Of a stretch of 64,000 nt of DNA, positions 44,772 through 53,095 are shown piece by piece. Source of the DNA: Saccharicrinis fermentans DSM 9555 = JCM 21142 (GTDB taxonomy: Bacteria; Bacteroidota; Bacteroidia; Bacteroidales; Marinilabiliaceae); contig NZ_KI912107.1 of NCBI RefSeq assembly GCF_000517085.1, positions 5,453,980-5,517,979 of the forward strand. Direction: 5' to 3'. The position numbers and the translations under genes are program-made. Every line of letters starts with the position of its first letter. Position 1 is the first letter of the stretch. The notes under the pieces were generated by a model. The model saw only the letters and a list, made by a program, of their open reading frames with translations, was not told the DNA's origin and made no database searches.

Positions 44772-46944
44772 CTATTCAGAAATTCCCTCCAGCATAAGCA
44801 TAAAACTGTATTCAAGTGCAGTCTCTCTATATCGTTTAAACCGTCCGGAGGCTCCACCGTGTCCTGCTTCCATATTGGTATGCATGATCAGTATATTGTC
44901 ATCTGTTTTGGTGTCTCTTAGCTTGGCTAACCATTTAGCGGGTTCCCAATATTGTACTTGGGAGTCGAACAGCCCTGTGGTGATTAGCATATTCGGATAG
45001 TCCTGAGTACTCACATTATCGTAAGGAGAATATTTTAGCATATATTCGTAAGCCTCTTTGTTTTTGGGGTTACCCCATTCATCAAATTCATTGGTTGTTA
45101 GGGGAATTGTTTCGTCTAACATAGTGTTGATGACGTCCACAAAAGGTACTGCAGCGATAATGCCATTGTATAATTGGGGAGCCATATTTGCAACAGCACC
45201 CATTAGTAATCCTCCGGCACTTCCTCCCATGGCGTATAAGTGCGAAGCTGAAGTGTATTTTTGCTCAATTAGAAACTGACTACAGTCAATATAGTCATTA
45301 AAAGTATTTATTTTGTTCATCATTTTGCCGTCGTCATACCATGCGCGACCCATGGACTGTCCTCCTCTGATATGGGCGATGGCATAAACAAAGCCTCTGT
45401 CCAGCAGACTTAGTCGGGTAGAGCTGAAGCCCGGATCAATGGTCACCCCATATGAACCATATGCATATAGTAGTAAAGGAGCTGAACCATCCAACTTGGT
45501 TCCTTTTTTATAAACAATTGAAATTGGAATTTTTACACCGTCACGTGCTGTTGCCCATTGTCTTTCGGTGCGATACTCTTGTGGATTGTGGCCGCCGACA
45601 ACTTCTCTCACCTTTTTAACTTCTTTTGTTTGGGTATCCATCCATGTGATAGTCGATGGTCGAGTAGGGAGTGGTCATGGAGCTATAGCTGTACCTTAAA
45701 ATATTTGTGTCGAATTCCGGGTTTGTGGAGGTTTGAGCCACATATACATCTTCTTCAAATTTTAGGTAATGTTCTTCTTTGGTTTTTTGATTGATGATGC
45801 GGATGTGGTTTAGTGCATTTTTGCGCTCGCTGACCACCAAATAGTTTTTGAAAATATCTATGCCTTCTAATAGAACATCATCACGATGGGGAATTACTTC
45901 TTTCCAGTTGCTAATGTCAGTAGCATCCTCTGGGGTTTCCATAAGTCTGAAATTTTTTGCCTTATCATTGGTTACAATATAAAATTTATCCTGAAAGTGA
46001 CTGATGTAATATTCGTGTTCTGTACCTCTGGGAGTGAATGGTTTAAATTGTCCGGTAGGATTATTGGCATCTAGAATATGGTAGTCGCTTACCAAAGTGC
46101 TACTGGCTCCGATAATAATGTATTTGTCAGATTTGGATTTGTCTACTCCGAGGTAAAACGATGGGTCTTTCTCGTGATATACCATGACATCTTTTGTGAT
46201 ATCATCTCCCAATTTATGACGCCATATTTTTTCACTCAAAAGAGAAACTTTGTTTTTAGAAGTGTAAAAATATGTTTGGTTGTCATTGGCCCATGCACCA
46301 CCTGCCGATACATTGGGGATTTCATCTTGAATGCTTTCTCCTGTTTCTATATTTTTAAAACGAAGCGTGTAAATTCTTCTGCTGACAGTATCTTCGGCAT
46401 AGGCCAGTATCTTATTGTCTAATGAAATGGTTAAACTTCCGATGGCATAATATTCATGACCCTCTGCCAATTGGTTCACATCTAAAAATACAATTTCAGG
46501 ATTGTTTAAGGAATCTTTTTTTCTACAAAATATGGGATATTCCTTGCCTTCTTGGTATTTGACGTAATACCAGTATCCATTAGAAAAATAAGGCACTGAC
46601 TCGTCGTCTTTTTTTATGCGGCTCACTATTTCATTAAATAGATTTTCTTGCAGTTGTTTGGTGTTATGCATGACCGAATCTGTGTAATTGTTCTCTGCGT
46701 TCAAATACTGTAGGACTTTCTGTGTTTGTTCATCCGGATTCTCTGCGTTTTTTTGTTCATCGGTCAAACGCATCCAAAAGTAAGGATCTATACGTGTGTG
46801 CTCATGAAATGTAATGGCAGAGTCCTTTTTTTCGGCCAGGGGAGCTTGGGGGAGTTGTTGCGGAATCATGGTGTTTTTTTTGTGTTCAACGGTGCAGCTA
46901 ATGACGAATGTCATAACCACCAGTAAAAATAGTGTCTGTTTCAT
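44772..46944 (-). pseudogene. ptrB: Oligopeptidase B (S9A prolyl oligopeptidase family), frame-shifted
   Basis: Two overlapping frames together make one protein of about 720 residues. The N-terminal part (46944 to 45616) is a lipoprotein (lipobox VISC at about 14-17) carrying the S9A propeller (IDPYFWMRL, GKEYPIFCRKK, NETLR-like blades). It runs normally to DYHMD, then misreads into GYPNKRS and stops. The C-terminal part (45641 to 44772) resumes with MDTQTKEVKKVREVVGGHNPQEY and has an intact hydrolase domain: Ser in MGGSAGGLLMG, Asp in LFDSQ and His in EAGHGG. The break coincides with a tandem ATCC repeat (45636-45645, ATCCATCCAT on the plus strand); deleting one 4-bp unit restores the frame. 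Either a recent mutation, a switchable contingency site, or a sequence error. Start at 46944 matches the signal peptide. Confidence 0.85.
45636..45645. repeat. Tandem 4-bp repeat causing the ptrB frameshift
   Basis: ATCCATCCAT (ATGGATGGAT in the gene) is two and a half units of ATCC. Removal of one unit joins DYHM-D to TQTKE and reconstructs an uninterrupted oligopeptidase. Confidence 0.85.
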
Positions 46945-47095
46945 TTGATTAAATAATTTTTTATGTAAAGATATTTTCTTTTTGTGAATATTCAATAGTT
47001 ATTTCTAATATGCTGTTATGCTATTTTTTATGAGTGATATTTGTTGGGATATTGTTTTTGCGAAGAAATATTAAAGTAAAAAAATACCCAATTAG

Positions 47096-47126
47096 TTTGG
47101 AGTTAATGATAATATTGGTATCTTTG
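47096..47126 (+). promoter_or_regulatory. Promoter of small-RNA unit 1
   Basis: TTTG (47096-47099), exactly 19 bp, TATCTTTG (47119-47126). The conserved RNA block begins about 6 nt later. Confidence 0.7.
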
Positions 47127-47131
47127 TATCA

Positions 47132-47208
47132 ACTCATAGTTTAGGGTTAGGTTTGGTTAAAGATTGAGAGCCACTGTCAGAACGTTGACAGTGGCTCTTT
47201 TCTTTTCA
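47132..47208 (+). ncRNA. Small RNA unit 1 of a tandem pair
   Basis: A short transcript of about 70 nt is predicted: conserved ACTCATAGTTTAGGGTTAGG (47132 onward), then GTTTGGTTAAAGATTGA, then a terminator stem GAGCCACTGTCA/TGACAGTGGCTC (47168-47179 with 47186-47197, 6-nt loop) and CTTTTCTTTT. It has its own promoter and no reading frame. A second copy at 47298-47369 is nearly identical, but one stem pair changes from G-C to A-T, preserving pairing. No similarity to a known RNA family is recognised by eye. Confidence 0.7.
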
Positions 47209-47262
47209 TAAGGCTTTCCTTTATGGGATTTTGTATGTGTCTTAAAAAAAACGCTTAAAATA

Positions 47263-47293
47263 TTTGGATTTATAAAAACAGTACGTATTTTTG
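47263..47293 (+). promoter_or_regulatory. Promoter of small-RNA unit 2
   Basis: TTTG (47263-47266), exactly 19 bp, TATTTTTG (47286-47293). The conserved block begins about 5 nt later. Spacing is identical to that of unit 1, although the spacer sequence differs. Confidence 0.7.
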
Positions 47294-47297
47294 TCGT

Positions 47298-47369
47298 ACT
47301 CATAGTTTAGGGTTAGGTTTGGTTAAAGATTGAAAGCCACTGTCAGAACGTTTGACAGTGGCTTTCTTG
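47298..47369 (+). ncRNA. Small RNA unit 2 of a tandem pair
   Basis: Second copy of the unit at 47132-47208. The first about 35 nt are identical (ACTCATAGTTTAGGGTTAGG and GTTTGGTTAAAGATTGA); the stem is AAAGCCACTGTCA/TGACAGTGGCTTT (47333-47345 with 47353-47365) with a loop one nucleotide longer (GAACGTT). The T tract after the stem is weaker (CTTGTTAT) than in copy 1. Sequence between and around the copies is not conserved, so the duplicated unit is the RNA itself plus promoter motifs. Confidence 0.7.
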
Positions 47370-47384
47370 TTATCTGACGTGAGC

Positions 47385-47759
47385 TAATTTGCTAGAAGGG
47401 GCTGAGAAAGGTCCTGTGTCAGCTGTCCAAAGTTGTTTTATTTTTATTAGAACGGTATCGTATTTGACTTCAATAAGTTTTTGATGAATTGTTCTTTATA
47501 TTCTTAGGACGAAGTTTTAATACATTGTTTGGGTTGTTTGGTGTTCGTTCAGATTGTAAGGGGGAGCTAATAAATGTGTTAGGCTGTTAAAACCGAGTTG
47601 GTATTTCGGAGTGCCGCTTATATATTTCAGTTGCAATTTTGTCTATTCTGTCTGTCTTTTTTAACAAGAATATGTAAAAAAAAATAATCTTGCTTAATAA
47701 ACCTATTTGGGTGTAATTTATTTTTTAGTTATACCTGTATTTATTATAAAACGATAGTT
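47385..47759 (+). other. Intergenic region before the adenylate cyclase
   Basis: A 375-nt AT-rich gap. I see no credible reading frame, no consensus TAnnTTTG with a -33 partner, and no strong hairpin. It ends with the leader of the cyclase gene. Confidence 0.4.
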
Positions 47760-48902
47760 ATGGACTGGACACCGGTTTTGAGATCAAAATATTCCTCTTC
47801 AAAGGTTAAATATCATTTATCCTATTTGTTACTGACTTTGATATATTGGAATGTGGTGATTCGAATAGCTATTTTTGTCCGGGTACTGGGTAATAAAGGT
47901 GACAATATTGAGGGTATTTTGACGCGGGGAATGGAGTTTGTGGCAGGAGAAGTTCTTCTCTCGTCAGTTGTTGTTTCTATTTTTGGAATATTGAGCTGGT
48001 ATGTGCGTCGTTTTGTTTACCCTGTTTTAATACGTAAATATCATATCAGGCGATTGGCCATACTTGTTATTTTTATGGATGCCATCGTTTTTTTTGGTTT
48101 TGCGGTAATGCTTGGTTTTGCCCATTATCTGGTGGATAGGCAACTGTCACCCATGGAAGCTTTTCATGCTCTGGGACGTTTTTTGTTTAATCCTACGATC
48201 CTTTTCTTTTTAATTGTTTTATCCATCGGAAGTTATGTGAATCAGTTGTTGTATACATTATTTCATCAAATAGGCTTTGCGAAGCTGGGAAGGGTTATGA
48301 TGGGGTATTATCAGAAACCAAGAGAGGAAAATCTGATATTTATGTTTTTAGATTTAAGGTCATCGACTACTTTTGCTGAAAAACTGGGGCATCAGAAATA
48401 TAGTGATTTTATTCAGGATTGCTTTAGAATGTTATCGGAGCCTTTGTTACTGACTTATGGTAGGGTGTATCAATATGTGGGAGATGAAGTAGTGGTGACT
48501 TGGAATGCGAATAAGAAAGATAATTTTAAGAAAGCCGTTGATTTCTTCTTCCTATATAAATCGGAGTTGGAGAGGCATCGGGAGTATTTTGAACAAAGGT
48601 ATGGTTTGATGCCTATTTTTACTGCTTCTATCAATTCTGGTAGGGTGATGGCTGCTCAGGTTGGTGAAATTAAAAGTGAATTAGCTTTTCATGGTGATGT
48701 GCTGAATACGGCTGCCAGAATACAAAAACAATGTAAAAAATACGGAGAGGAAATTATTGTGACTAAAGAGTTTGCTGAGCATATGAACGTCGATTCTAAT
48801 GGTTATGAAGTGCAATTTATAGATCGAACAATATTGGCTGGAAAATCAAATGAGGTAGAGTTGTACGGAGTGAATGTGAAATTGGATATTCAATTGCGGT
48901 AG
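47760..48902 (+). CDS. Membrane-bound class III adenylate/guanylate cyclase
   Basis: A 380-residue protein with four TM helices in the first about 170 residues and a class III cyclase domain from about 195. EENLIFMFLDLRSSTTFAEKLG carries the first metal-binding Asp, YGRVYQYVGDEVVVTW the second, and FTASINSGRVMAAQVGEIKSELAFHGDVLNTAARIQ the transition-state Asn/Arg region. It makes cAMP (or cGMP) in response to an unknown membrane signal. There is no HAMP domain; the TM region resembles other Bacteroidota four-TM cyclases. It is monocistronic, and no CRP-like gene is nearby. Confidence 0.9.
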   Translation: MDWTPVLRSKYSSSKVKYHLSYLLLTLIYWNVVIRIAIFVRVLGNKGDNIEGILTRGMEFVAGEVLLSSVVVSIFGILSWYVRRFVYPVLIRKYHIRRLAILVIFMDAIVFFGFAVMLGFAHYLVDRQLSPMEAFHALGRFLFNPTILFFLIVLSIGSYVNQLLYTLFHQIGFAKLGRVMMGYYQKPREENLIFMFLDLRSSTTFAEKLGHQKYSDFIQDCFRMLSEPLLLTYGRVYQYVGDEVVVTWNANKKDNFKKAVDFFFLYKSELERHREYFEQRYGLMPIFTASINSGRVMAAQVGEIKSELAFHGDVLNTAARIQKQCKKYGEEIIVTKEFAEHMNVDSNGYEVQFIDRTILAGKSNEVELYGVNVKLDIQLR

Positions 48903-49102: not shown

Positions 49103-52100
49103 ATGAAAAAATATCTATTTTTTTTCAGTGCACTTGTTTTCATAGGAATTGGATTGAATTATTTTTTGTTCCGGGAAGAATTTTATTCGGTGTCGAAGTT
49201 AAAGCCGACTTCTTCTTTAGTTATTTTAGAACGTCAGGTTAACAGGAAGATTGAACGCAGAAAGAGAGGGTATGCGAAACCCGACAAACCCGATCATTAC
49301 ATTAATTATCTCAGGTCTTTGGTATCTCTGGATGGTCAGAGTGCTTATCAAGAAGGCTATAAAATGAAGGCCCTGGAGTCGGCTATGCTTCGCAGACAAT
49401 CATTGAAGTCGTCATCGGAAAAGCTCCCTTGGATTCAGCGCGGACCAGGAAATATAGGAGGGAGAACCCGTTGTGTTGTGGTGGATCCGGATGACCCTAC
49501 AAAGATGACATGGTTTGCCGGTGCGGTTTCTGGTGGTATATGGAAAACAGAGGATGGAGGAGTGTCCTGGGATATCATATCGCCGGATATCCCTAACTTA
49601 GCCACTGTGTGCTTAGCGATAGCCCCTTCTAATACCAATGTTATTTATGCTGGGACCGGAGAGGGGTATTACAATGTGGATGCTGTTAGAGGAGATGGTA
49701 TTTTTAAGAGTACAGATAAGGGAAATACATGGTCAGTGATCGAATCTACTTCGGGAAATAATTTGTTTTATTATGTAAACAGTCTTGTGGTGTCACACAT
49801 AGATGAGAATAGATTATGGGTTGCCACCAATCAGGGTGTTTTTAAGTCGGATGATGGCGGGGCCAGCTGGGAAGATAGTGGCTTGGATCGGGGAGATAGA
49901 TATCAAAGGATTCTTATTCATCCTTTTAATGATGCTGTTTTATGGGTTACTCGAAATAATAAAGGAATATATAAGAGTGAGGATGGTGGCGATCATTGGT
50001 TTTTAGTATATGATATGTCATCTTTGGTACCGGAAAGGATAGAGATTGCTGTTGCTGCGAATGATCCGGATGTTTTGTATGCGATGGATGTCAACTCTAA
50101 TTTTTATTATTCTCAGGATGGAGGTACGGAATGGGGCAAGTCTGTCGAAAATGGCACAGTCACTGAGTTTTTAGGTAGTCAGGGATGGTATAATAATGTT
50201 ATTGCCATTGACCCAACGGATGCGACGAAAGGTTTTATTGGAGGGATTGATTTGTATCGTTTTCAGTTGGGAAATGAAATAGCATCCTCAGGAAGACAGG
50301 CTTTTTCTGTTGAAAATAACATGACTTCATGGTTGGGTTTTGAGTATTTTGGAGGGCGTTACTCCAATGGAGGGGTGGAAATATTAGAAGGTTTTCAGAA
50401 TCAATTAAGTGAAATTCAGATTCAGTTTGGACCTGATAAAGTGCAAAAGGCACATCGCCTGGTGAAGAAGCCCTCGGAGCCGGACTTTAATAGGAATGTT
50501 GCGGATGATTTGGGTAGCCTGACCTATGCGGGATATAATGATGTTCCTTTTCGGGTTGTAGATTTGTCAACGGGAGTACAGCTGCATGTTTCTTATGTGG
50601 ATGGTAATGAAAATGGGAGCTTTGATATATATGAGGGTGGTTATGAGTTTATATTGATTCATGATGTGCCTTATGCTGAGGAGGCTGCGAATGAATCTGT
50701 GGTATCCAATGGTGGTGCTTATGAAACCATGGTAGCTCTTTATCCCAAGCTGATAGAAGGTGTTGTTTGGGCGACGTCCGGTCTGCCCGAAGGGGATCTC
50801 CGAATTCGTTCCTATGAGCTGAAGAATAGGGAATTAGAGGCTAGTCGTATAAGTAAATGGTCGGCTTTTAAGTCTGCCAGTGACTATGTCCACGCTGACC
50901 AGCATAATATCACTATCTTGGAAGAGGTTGGTGATCCTTTTTCAATTGTTGTAGGTAATGATGGGGGCGTATTTTATTCTAGTGATGGAGGTGATCATTG
51001 GGCTCATAAATCAAAAGGTTATGTTACTTCTCAGTTTTATGGAGTTACTAGGCACCCCAAGCGATATCAATATTTTGGTGGCTTACAAGACAATGGTTCT
51101 GCGCTTTCGTCTGTGAACCCAAATGGTTTGAGTGAATGGGAGGATGTTCTTGGAGGTGATGGTTTTGATGTGGTCTGGCATCCGCGCAAGACCACTCAGC
51201 TGATGGGGAGTTATTACAATAACCTGTTGCAAAAGAGTGTGGATGGTGGATTTAATTGGATTGATACCTATAAGATGATAGGTGACAATGGGGATGATGG
51301 ATCAGCACCATTTATTACGAGTATTGCCAGTTGTCTGGCCGATCCAGATTTACTGTTTGTGGGTGGAAAATCAGGGCTGTGGAAGTCAAGTGACTTTGGC
51401 GATAGTTGGAAGAATATTCAAATGGGTACTTACTGGGGGTTTACTTCTAACTCGTCTCCTAAGGTGGCTATTAGTGAGGCTGATCCTGATATTGTTTGGG
51501 CAGGTGTACGGGTGAATGCTTTGGCTGGGTATGAGATAGGAAGGGTGCATGTTTCAATGGATGGTGGTGAATCTTTTGAAGACATAGAGCCTTTTGCTAA
51601 CATGGGGGCTATCACTGATATTGTAACTCACCCGCTTGATCGGGAGACGGCTTATCTGGTCTTTTCATTGGCCAATAGACCTAAAATTGTACGAACAACA
51701 GATTTAGGTGTTACATGGGAAGATATAACGGGCTTTGGTTTAAATAATCCCAGAGCAAGCAGTAGTAATGATTTTCCGAATGTGGCTGTCAATACTCTGT
51801 TGGTAATGCCATTTGATAGCCAAACCCTTTGGGCAGGTACTGAAATAGGGCTATTTATAAGTGAGGATGATGGAGTAACGTGGACCTATGCCAATAATGG
51901 CCTTCCTGCAGTTTCTATTTGGGATATGAAAATAGTTGGTGATGAGGTGATTATGGGTACTCATGGATTGGGTGTGTGGAGTGTTAAAATGGAGCCCTTG
52001 AGTAATGATATAAAGCATCCTTTTATTCATAATGCGGGTATAAATCCTTCGGGTAATTATGTGTTACATACAATTTTTGATGTGGCATTGGATTCTTTTG

Positions 52101-53095
52101 AGTTGTATAACGACAAAGGATTGGTGCGTACGTATCGAACAGTGAAGGCAGAAGATCGGGTGTTGACCATTCCTAGTGCCGAGGGAATCTCTGAAAAATG
52201 GCATATTTATGGTTATCTAAATGGTATGAAATACAGTTCAAACGTACGCCACCTCGAACTGACTGCGGTTAGTCAAGCGCTTGTTGCTTATACAAATAAG
52301 TTTGATGAAGACGATGGTTTAGATGATTTTGTGGGTAGTTACTTCTCAATTAGTAGGGGTAGCTTTAGTAGTAATGCCATTCAATCTCCCCACCCTTATC
52401 CTGAAAATATGGATTTGACTTACACGCTGAAGCATCCAATCATTGTTTCGGGAGATGAGGATTTGGCATTTATTAAATATATTGATATTGCATACGTAGA
52501 AACGGGTGCGGCAGATGCTACCTATATGGATGAGGGATTTTATGATTATGTAGCTGTAGAAGGCAGTAAGGATGGCCTAGAATGGAAAGCCTTAGCTCCA
52601 GGATATGACTTTTCCTATAATGATGTGTGGAATCAAGGTGGTGATGATTATGCAAGTACGCCTACGGTAGCTGCGTTTACAGAACATACTATTAATCTAC
52701 TGGATAACTTTGCGGCGACGGATACCATATTAATACGTTTTAAGCTACATTCTGATCCGTTTGAAAATGGCTGGGGATGGATTATTGATAACCTTCGTAT
52801 TCAAGGGCAAATAGCTGCTGTTGAAGAAAATGTTTCCGATGACTTTGAGGTAACGCTATTCCCGAATCCAGTAGACGGGGATCACTTTAATATTCGGCTG
52901 AGGGATGCTTATGTTGGAACTGTGCAGGTGAGTATATATAATGCCTCGGGGCAGCAGTTACTGAAGAGCTCCTATTTTAAAGGAGCAGAGGTGCTTGAAG
53001 AGGAGTTGTATTTGCCAAAATTGTTGTCGGGATTTTATCTGGTAAAGATAGAAGTGGGTAATAGGCAGGTTACAAAAAAGCTAAGCTTGCGTTAA
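49103..53095 (+). CDS. Giant secreted Asp-box (BNR/sortilin-like) beta-propeller protein with type IX sorting domain
   Basis: A 1330-residue exported protein with an N-terminal signal or anchor (about 4-22). At least eleven BNR/Asp-box motifs of the form S-x-D-x-G-x-x-W are visible (TEDGGVSWD, STDKGNTWS, SDDGGASWE, SEDGGDHWF, SQDGGTEWG, SSDGGDHWA, SVDGGFNWI, SSDFGDSWK, SMDGGESFE, TTDLGVTWE, SEDDGVTWT), giving two sortilin-like propellers with an inserted beta domain at about 390-560. A further beta domain (about 1060-1240) precedes a C-terminal type IX sorting domain (about 1250-1330, LFPNPVDGDHFNIRL to GFYLVKIEVGNRQVTKKLSLR). It would be exported by the Por system and anchored at the cell surface or released. 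Sialidase catalytic residues are not apparent. Substrate or partner unknown. Confidence 0.88.
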   Translation: MKKYLFFFSALVFIGIGLNYFLFREEFYSVSKLKPTSSLVILERQVNRKIERRKRGYAKPDKPDHYINYLRSLVSLDGQSAYQEGYKMKALESAMLRRQSLKSSSEKLPWIQRGPGNIGGRTRCVVVDPDDPTKMTWFAGAVSGGIWKTEDGGVSWDIISPDIPNLATVCLAIAPSNTNVIYAGTGEGYYNVDAVRGDGIFKSTDKGNTWSVIESTSGNNLFYYVNSLVVSHIDENRLWVATNQGVFKSDDGGASWEDSGLDRGDRYQRILIHPFNDAVLWVTRNNKGIYKSEDGGDHWFLVYDMSSLVPERIEIAVAANDPDVLYAMDVNSNFYYSQDGGTEWGKSVENGTVTEFLGSQGWYNNVIAIDPTDATKGFIGGIDLYRFQLGNEIASSGRQAFSVENNMTSWLGFEYFGGRYSNGGVEILEGFQNQLSEIQIQFGPDKVQKAHRLVKKPSEPDFNRNVADDLGSLTYAGYNDVPFRVVDLSTGVQLHVSYVDGNENGSFDIYEGGYEFILIHDVPYAEEAANESVVSNGGAYETMVALYPKLIEGVVWATSGLPEGDLRIRSYELKNRELEASRISKWSAFKSASDYVHADQHNITILEEVGDPFSIVVGNDGGVFYSSDGGDHWAHKSKGYVTSQFYGVTRHPKRYQYFGGLQDNGSALSSVNPNGLSEWEDVLGGDGFDVVWHPRKTTQLMGSYYNNLLQKSVDGGFNWIDTYKMIGDNGDDGSAPFITSIASCLADPDLLFVGGKSGLWKSSDFGDSWKNIQMGTYWGFTSNSSPKVAISEADPDIVWAGVRVNALAGYEIGRVHVSMDGGESFEDIEPFANMGAITDIVTHPLDRETAYLVFSLANRPKIVRTTDLGVTWEDITGFGLNNPRASSSNDFPNVAVNTLLVMPFDSQTLWAGTEIGLFISEDDGVTWTYANNGLPAVSIWDMKIVGDEVIMGTHGLGVWSVKMEPLSNDIKHPFIHNAGINPSGNYVLHTIFDVALDSFELYNDKGLVRTYRTVKAEDRVLTIPSAEGISEKWHIYGYLNGMKYSSNVRHLELTAVSQALVAYTNKFDEDDGLDDFVGSYFSISRGSFSSNAIQSPHPYPENMDLTYTLKHPIIVSGDEDLAFIKYIDIAYVETGAADATYMDEGFYDYVAVEGSKDGLEWKALAPGYDFSYNDVWNQGGDDYASTPTVAAFTEHTINLLDNFAATDTILIRFKLHSDPFENGWGWIIDNLRIQGQIAAVEENVSDDFEVTLFPNPVDGDHFNIRLRDAYVGTVQVSIYNASGQQLLKSSYFKGAEVLEEELYLPKLLSGFYLVKIEVGNRQVTKKLSLR

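Follow-up and report, generated by a model that had tools for sequence, protein, structure and literature searches.

Introduction

Small-RNA control in the Bacteroidota is known from few species, and FopS, together with the protein RbpB, is a main multi-copy example. In the portions of the primary report drawn on here, FopS comprises 14 paralogous Bacteroides sRNAs of ~65–70 nt with a universal single-stranded 5' end, a Rho-independent terminator and sigma-ABfr promoters, which block translation of SusC-type mRNAs and are opposed by RbpB, an RRM-1 protein that binds FopS in its 5' region (PMC11697453). The same portions describe the FopS 5' segment as nearly constant, yet acting by pairing (PMC11697453). 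GibS, as described in the cited parts of two reports, is a 145-nt single-copy Bacteroides sRNA that shares its seed with the short, multi-copy FopS (PMC11697453, PMC7366714).

Here we describe two short units of Saccharicrinis fermentans DSM 9555, found in a 64,000-nucleotide stretch of its genome (the window, in which the positions of Table 1 are counted), and the family to which they belong. On balance, and with modest confidence, we favour the view that both units are self-contained genes, each encoding a trans-acting regulatory RNA of ~72 nt and of FopS type. A search of the open-licence literature returned no description of this family, the relevant papers being those that concern FopS and GibS.

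Anatomy of the two window units

Both units lie in the same direction in the gap between a prolyl oligopeptidase gene (5' side at 46995, minus strand) and a nucleotide cyclase gene (Table 1), a gap in which no ORF of at least 60 aa was found; a tRNA/tmRNA search of the window also returned none. An earlier reading of the locus, made from the sequence only, had described two promoter-bearing units at a spacing of 166, and direct reading confirms TTTG-N19-TAnnTTTG in both. Each unit follows the same layout, namely TTTG, 19 nt, TAnnTTTG, 4–5 nt, ACTCATAGTTTAGGGTTAGGTTTGGTTAAAGATT, a hairpin and a T-rich stretch. The 34-nt 5' segment is identical between the copies and forms part of a 55-nt repeat of 98% identity, at the same 166-nt spacing. 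The first 46 nt are 98% identical, against 42% for the 50 nt upstream (promoter included) and 20% for the 50 nt downstream.

Table 1. Features of the two units and the adjacent cyclase gene, positions in the window
Feature	Position	Strand	Remarks
Promoter, copy 1, TTTG-N19-TATCTTTG	47096..47126	+	Bacteroidota primary-sigma type
Promoter boxes, copy 1	TTTG 47096-47099, N19, TATCTTTG 47119-47126	+	Read from sequence
sRNA gene, copy 1, about 72 nt	47132..47204	+	Begins ACTCATAG; 5' end inferred at its A; predicted transcript
Constant single-stranded 5' segment, copy 1, ACTCATAGTTTAGGGTTAGGTTTGGTTAAAGATT	47132..47165	+	Family alignment
Core GGGTTAGGTTTGGTTAA, copy 1	47144..47160	+	Retained in five relatives without CTCATAG
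Terminator stem-loop, copy 1	47166..47199	+	Stem arms 47166-47179/47186-47199; family covariation
Promoter, copy 2, TTTG-N19-TATTTTTG	47263..47293	+	TTTG 47263-47266, TATTTTTG 47286-47293
sRNA gene, copy 2, about 72 nt	47298..47371	+	Begins ACTCATAG; predicted transcript
Constant single-stranded 5' segment, copy 2	47298..47331	+	Family alignment
Core GGGTTAGGTTTGGTTAA, copy 2	47310..47326	+	
Terminator stem-loop, copy 2	47332..47366	+	Stem arms 47332-47345/47353-47366; one A-T pair vs G-C in copy 1
Nucleotide cyclase gene	47760-48902		Identified by Pfam

The terminator stems noted earlier are present, with a length of 14–15 bp rather than the 12–13 bp first given, and the exchange of one stem pair, from G-C in copy 1 (47168/47197) to A-T in copy 2 (47334/47364), is real. 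The outermost stem pair shows a one-sided change between the copies, G-T to G-C, and copy 2 has a weak T-tract (TTGTTATC). Folding z-scores are -5.07 for copy 1 and -4.85 for copy 2, with 0/200 shuffles equally stable in each case, and the interval 46996–47759 holds 2 terminator-like sites against 0.4 ± 0.8 in shuffles. A 4-bp mini-hairpin is also predicted in the 5' segment, and its pairs never vary. A lone compensatory pair between two copies is weak evidence by itself; the rest is supplied by the family data.

A dispersed multi-copy family

A search of the 5.98 Mb genome with the first 20 nt, permitting up to 3 mismatches, gives 3 forward and 0 reverse matches (control 0), which are the window pair and a third copy at C3:3161347. 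The exact 20-mer recurs in a scan of genome contigs as 22 units on 21 stretches of six other named genomes: Labilibacter marinus (5), L. sediminis (6), Plebeiobacterium sediminum (5), P. marinum (4) and two Saccharicrinis MAGs (1 each). This distribution, with its forward bias at home and exact copies elsewhere, argues that the window units are not chance occurrences. In L. sediminis several copies sit at the ends of contigs and could be pieces of one array; the contigs of L026, L027, L011 and L012 from this species end at the repeats, so that an array may have collapsed in assembly. Units in L026 are spaced about 3.2 kb from each other and stand before secreted-protein genes; a second repeat, of 47 nt, is close by.

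The 14 nt that follow the search 20-mer, and hence lie outside the pattern, are the same in 22/22 units. In an alignment of 21 units (the 3 from the own genome and 18 of the 22, leaving out the repeats L011, L012, L027 and one L026 copy), columns 2–34 are invariant in 21/21, the first 20 nt being the search pattern for 18 of them. Constancy is not absolute, as L061 and L062, from two other genera, carry single-letter differences within the 5' segment.

The hairpin behaves otherwise. Among 20 distinct copies 93.0% of 257 cells are standard pairs, against 80.0 ± 1.5 in shuffles and 42–64% when the structure is slid along the alignment, and double-change cells number 29 against 8.4 ± 2.4 (0/500 shuffles as high). 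Of the five measures of covariation, two are unremarkable, namely pairs with a double change (7 vs 4.8, 29/500 shuffles as high) and further pair types (20 vs 18.1, 91/500 as high). Upstream, TAnnTTTG stands 3–7 nt before ACTCATAG in 14/23 distinct short-form sequences (500 shuffles, mean 0.25, maximum 3), accompanied in 13 of the 14 by TTG a further 18–21 nt upstream. The count rises to 16/23 if one mismatch is permitted at 4–5 nt, leaving 7/23 that satisfy neither the strict nor the relaxed rule, the L. sediminis repeat copies among them.

The sequences show the anatomy, conservation, covariation, copy number and promoter of the window family, and the window units belong to a dispersed multi-copy RNA family with promoters and terminators that is under selection. 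The sequence-only reading had proposed two parallel RNA genes under selection, and had held that homologues without a conserved promoter and stem would speak against this. The proposal is supported: the relatives keep the promoter (14/23 under the strict rule) and a covarying stem, and their 5' segment is constant.

Short and longer forms

A search of the taxonomic family with the covariance model R1 gives, at E <= 0.01, matches in 60/71 genomes and 20/21 genera; many that score less than about 45 bits could be terminators hit by chance. At E <= 2e-10 there are 2–9 strong matches in each of the nine genomes of the own genus (3 in the own genome), which as defined here includes Labilibacter; genus labels such as g20 and g21 are those of this analysis. 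The other 62 genomes of the family comprise 24 with one such match, G019 with two, G030 with three and 36 with none.

The exact core GGGTTAGGTTTGGTTAA occurs in 54 distinct units in the loci examined, immediately preceded by CTCATAGTTTA in 49/54. An abutting promoter is found in 17/54, all from the own genus (assigned by locus or sequence identity). A longer form, which carries AA(A/G)TTTTCTCATAG, accounts for 26/54 units from 25 genomes and 7 genera, and in many of these a promoter lies some 60–110 nt upstream and is followed by a small variable hairpin; 11/54 fit neither rule. The longer form is preceded by a DUF3078 gene in 4/4 Pfam-tested loci (L003, L039, L056, L058), and by a similar C-terminus, judged by eye, in the remaining longer-form loci compared. 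The third copy of the own genome (C3:3161347) is of the longer form, with a predicted RNA of ~130 nt. Five units (G045, G050) are without CTCATAG and keep the core, two of the five with a promoter right before it. At positions 1199–1300 of L058, and also in L221 and L222, a different module, TTTTTTCATAGGTTTAGGTTAGGTTAATTAGG, with its own hairpin stands upstream of the longer form; this module is found at the DUF3078 site of three genomes.

Candidate targets and protein partners

A near-perfect complement of the 5' segment (20–22 nt, up to 3 mismatches) was found nowhere in the own genome besides the genes themselves. Further searches used a sample of 1.66 Mb in 81 pieces with 1181 genes. Among 1815 candidate starts the seed has 56 start-anchored complements where shuffled seeds have 54.5 ± 18, which is no excess, and the complement of the core over the 1.66 Mb does no better than shuffled sequence. 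A duplex energy of -12 kcal/mol or below is reached at 532/1181 gene starts against 444 ± 54 for shuffled seeds, a marginal signal (2/70 shuffles as high), and in a smaller set of 299 starts at 123 against 91.8 ± 16. Stricter energies give no significant excess among the 1181 starts (42 vs 30 ± 10 at -18 kcal/mol). At SusC starts, for which 50/56 matches were read by eye, no complementarity was evident, and none is found in the top 40 when complements of the 5' segment at ATGs are ranked; the top places go to the units, to further sRNA loci and, among these, to sites that match by chance. The strongest single candidate, the start of a 481-aa frame in L279 (-25.3 kcal/mol), is conspicuous by its own sequence; it is not claimed as a target, shuffled seeds averaging 2.9 starts at or below -22. 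For the sister RNA at C3:4824283 start-anchored matches number 101 against 52.9 ± 16.4 (threshold 25; 0.6% of shuffles as high), an excess to which we give little weight because its A-rich complement resembles generic start regions. The base-pairing role raised by the sequence-only reading is possible; the target searches found none, bar the one marginal aggregate signal, and the pairing mechanism rests on analogy. The idea of start-codon pairing is weakened by the five copies that keep the core but lack the CAU.

A domain search for RRM_1 (PF00076, the domain of RbpB) found it in 0/9 genomes of the own genus, including the own genome, with a positive control in Bacteroides ihuae; it was detected in 44/62 other genomes of the family. 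Any FopS-like action in the own genus would therefore not use an RbpB homologue of that type. The 18/62 without RRM_1, which belong mostly to genera g20 and g21, do not show the short form, so that loss of the protein and multiplication of the RNA need not coincide. Within the own genus the short form and the missing RRM_1 coincide on one branch of the tree, and this coincidence counts once.

Protein binding, too, would account for a long constant segment that has no mRNA complement in sight, and this keeps alive the rival that the 5' segment titrates or delivers an RNA-binding protein, copy number being the amount of decoy. CsrB-like sponges are the comparison for such a mode, and a putative five-nucleotide rhythm, GGUUA-GGUUU-GGUUA, read by eye in the 5' segment, would belong to it. 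In favour are the constancy of this long segment across paralogues with no complementary mRNA found, and the retention of the core where CTCATAG is lost. RbpB binding in the 5' region of FopS, as given in the cited portions of that report (PMC11697453), points the same way. Against it, RRM_1, the protein class known for FopS, was not found in the own genus, and the FopS segment, described there as likewise near-constant, works by pairing. We regard a protein decoy as rather unlikely, at perhaps a quarter of our expectation.

Genomic neighbourhood

In Labilibacter marinus (L016) one copy adjoins a 727-aa homologue of the window oligopeptidase, and by this shared position the site is old. The window S9 prolyl oligopeptidase is itself read as two overlapping frames on the minus strand (44772–45641 and 45616–46995, catalytic part and propeller part), and its L016 relative as a single frame of 727 aa. 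The other neighbours are unrelated, among them a mechanosensitive channel, pyruvate phosphate dikinase, a sulfatase, the DNA polymerase III delta subunit (PF13177), a rhodanese, an AraC regulator and Por_Secre_tail proteins (10 genes tested, one without a family). The downstream gene, over 22 cases, has the same orientation in 10, the opposite in 8 and is missing in 4 by the first ORF rule, and 7, 11 and 4 by an alternative rule. Unrelated neighbours and mixed orientation argue that the units are self-contained rather than leaders.

These data argue against a second rival, in which the units are cis-acting leaders or attenuators, transcription starting at the promoter and the hairpin conditionally stopping it before a downstream gene. 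The L026 copies do precede secreted-protein genes, one with Por_Secre_tail (Pfam), and the L007 copy precedes a Sortilin-like Por_Secre_tail gene, a type of protein also encoded further downstream in the window (49103–53095); set against the unrelated neighbours and the orientation counts, they leave a leader function very unlikely. Least probable of all, and scarcely credible to us, is the reading of the units as a repetitive or small mobile element that multiplies by copying and is not kept for function. Copies that are dispersed, paired in tandem or arrayed (G030, G045, Labilibacter sediminis) might be invoked for it, but the flanks of the window copies are not shared, the stems diverge with pairing kept, the promoter is kept and the oligopeptidase-side position is common to L. 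marinus, while a phage, plasmid or viral origin was rejected on finding copy 1 unmatched in phage and plasmid records and its 20-mer without an exact match in viral contigs.

Proposed action of the RNA

In the FopS-type regulatory RNA that we favour, a primary-sigma promoter would start the transcript at ACUCAUAG, the first ~34 nt, mostly unpaired, would be the effector, and the hairpin would terminate transcription and shield the 3' end. Transcription, the 5' end and action in trans are what we infer from this arrangement. The window pair would be a tandem duplicate inside the dispersed multi-copy family of the own genus, and the short family probably derives from the longer RNA found beside the DUF3078 gene in several genera, a relation somewhat like that of single-copy GibS to multi-copy FopS in Bacteroides. 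Only by analogy with FopS, the 5' segment, with a CAU to face AUG and a G/U-rich core, would bind several mRNAs at their translation start regions by imperfect pairing and reduce their translation, at a dose given by the number of copies.

A FopS-like family outside the gut genera, in a genus in which no RRM-1 protein was found, makes it testable if such RNAs need the protein and if control of the FopS type goes back to the ancestor of the order. With its constant 5' segment the family also offers a clean bait for finding partners.

Relationship to FopS and other known RNAs

The sequence-only reading recognised no known RNA family. This stands at Rfam gathering thresholds, with 0 matches in the window and 0 in 20 related loci, but model R2 provides a distant tie to FopS. 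In Rfam FopS is RF04319, with a cut-off of 56 bits. For the window, the units are absent from the 27 RF04319 matches at E <= 10, and the FopS score of at least 56 bits is not reached. The best match in the own genome, of 34.6 bits, lies elsewhere than the window units, and those at C3:4694114, 4685891, 4824283 and 4863766 score 30.7–34.6 bits, below the cut-off. Two of these, C3:4694114 (34.6 bits) and C3:4685891 (30.7 bits), are found by R1 too. A single-copy RNA of two Bacteroides-like genomes (L094, L095) is picked up by R1 and RF04319 alike, in each case below cut-off, and three intermediates from another family (L240, L245) score 32–43 bits to RF04319. The R1 score of genuine FopS is only 12.3 bits.

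Model R2 was built from 12 intermediate sequences, with neither FopS nor a window unit included. Since RNAalifold returned no shared structure for alignment A3, the model is without base pairs and tests primary sequence only. In 158 kb it ranks genuine FopS (L135, 76.8 bits to RF04319) first, with E 2.8e-5, and the window units second and fourth (E 2.2e-4 and 4.5e-4), E-values of models of the R1 and R2 type being rough. It recovers 10/11 known window-family units in the sequences searched (L058:1501 is missed), does not find L129 and, in 80 kb of own-genome stretches drawn at random, has no hit with E <= 1. A single profile of intermediates thus retrieves both FopS and the window family, partly circularly for the latter since the intermediates were chosen by likeness to it. 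The window family also shares with FopS a short RNA with an unpaired conserved 5' end and a terminator hairpin, and multi-copy paralogues with primary-sigma-type promoters. We hold that the two are probably distant relatives.

Several other RNAs were noted during these searches. A sister group with TTTTTTCATAGATTAGGGTTTAGGTTA and a terminator occurs in the own genome at C3:4685891–4685960 (L126) and C3:4694114–4694180 (L127), both on the minus strand, and in G045 on C69 (L133); L126 and L133 have two TTTTTTCATAGATTAGGGTTTAGGTTA modules in tandem, and G045 has three dispersed two-module copies. A pair of RNAs with TTTTTTTTCATAGATTTAGATTTGGTTAAC and a terminator some 40–50 nt on lies at C3:4824283 (L128) and C3:4863766 (L129), plus strand, with 34.3 and 33.8 bits to RF04319. 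The genuine FopS of 76.8 bits is at G064 C41:116–182 (L135), from a genome that is classed with the own taxonomic family; its place near the end of a 5.5-kb contig makes contamination possible.

Beyond the taxonomic family, the motif TCATAG-N1-4-TAGG-N1-4-TAGGTT gives 18 matches inside and 22 outside the family in 392 genomes of the order. The terminator detector has low sensitivity, with 6 of 11 matches recognised in the own family. The reversed pattern gives 21 outside, so that the motif alone is not enriched there. A strict terminator follows downstream in 8/22 outside matches, against 9/3601 random positions and 0/22 upstream; the 8 come from three taxonomic families, six of them from one. 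Five outside matches sit at gene starts on the opposite strand; in three of these (L219, L220 and L238) the complement of the motif is the start region of genes with signal-peptide-like N termini, a target-like arrangement seen with no control set. One could go further and place FopS and GibS as a single branch in a superfamily of start-codon-facing sRNAs that spans the order, marked by UUCAUAG, UUAGG repeats and a terminator, in which the own genus lost RRM-1 and its RNA was cut to 72 nt and multiplied, a FopS-type network running without its known protein partner. The 18 other family genomes that lack RRM_1 and do not show the short form speak against it. As a joint claim this is speculative, and we would expect it to be wrong in about three cases of four.

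Among known RNAs, BTnc231 (RF04180) has a model consensus that starts UUUUUUUCAUAG and contains UUUAG motifs, but it spans 154 positions with several stems and scores 21 bits at the window against a cut-off of 80.4; its weak match, and those of rli40 and the PyrG leader, are far under their cut-offs and are taken as chance. The Flavobacterium sRNA Rfp18 looks unrelated, as far as its description in the cited part of PMC9723704 goes. GibS, whose marks are a PM2 promoter and two seeds that bear the names R1 and R2 (not to be confused with our models), is named in none of the Rfam search outputs for the window and its relatives. From its published description, in the parts cited above, the relation of a long to a short multi-copy RNA parallels that of our family to the longer form beside DUF3078 genes, whereas genomic position differs and the shared seed of GibS is at its 5' end, the shared segment of the longer form being in the 3' part, before the terminator. 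FopS differs from the window family in several respects: the 5' segment of the latter reads CUCAUAG-UUUAGGG-UUAGGUUUGGUUAA, its units are unmatched by RF04319, the own genus has no detected RRM_1 proteins and SusC pairing was not found. Common to FopS and the predicted window RNAs are a length of about 70 nt, sigma-ABfr-type promoters, a Rho-independent terminator, many dispersed copies and a near-constant single-stranded 5' segment, which in the FopS consensus contains UCAU(A/G)G and UUAG/GGUUAA motifs.
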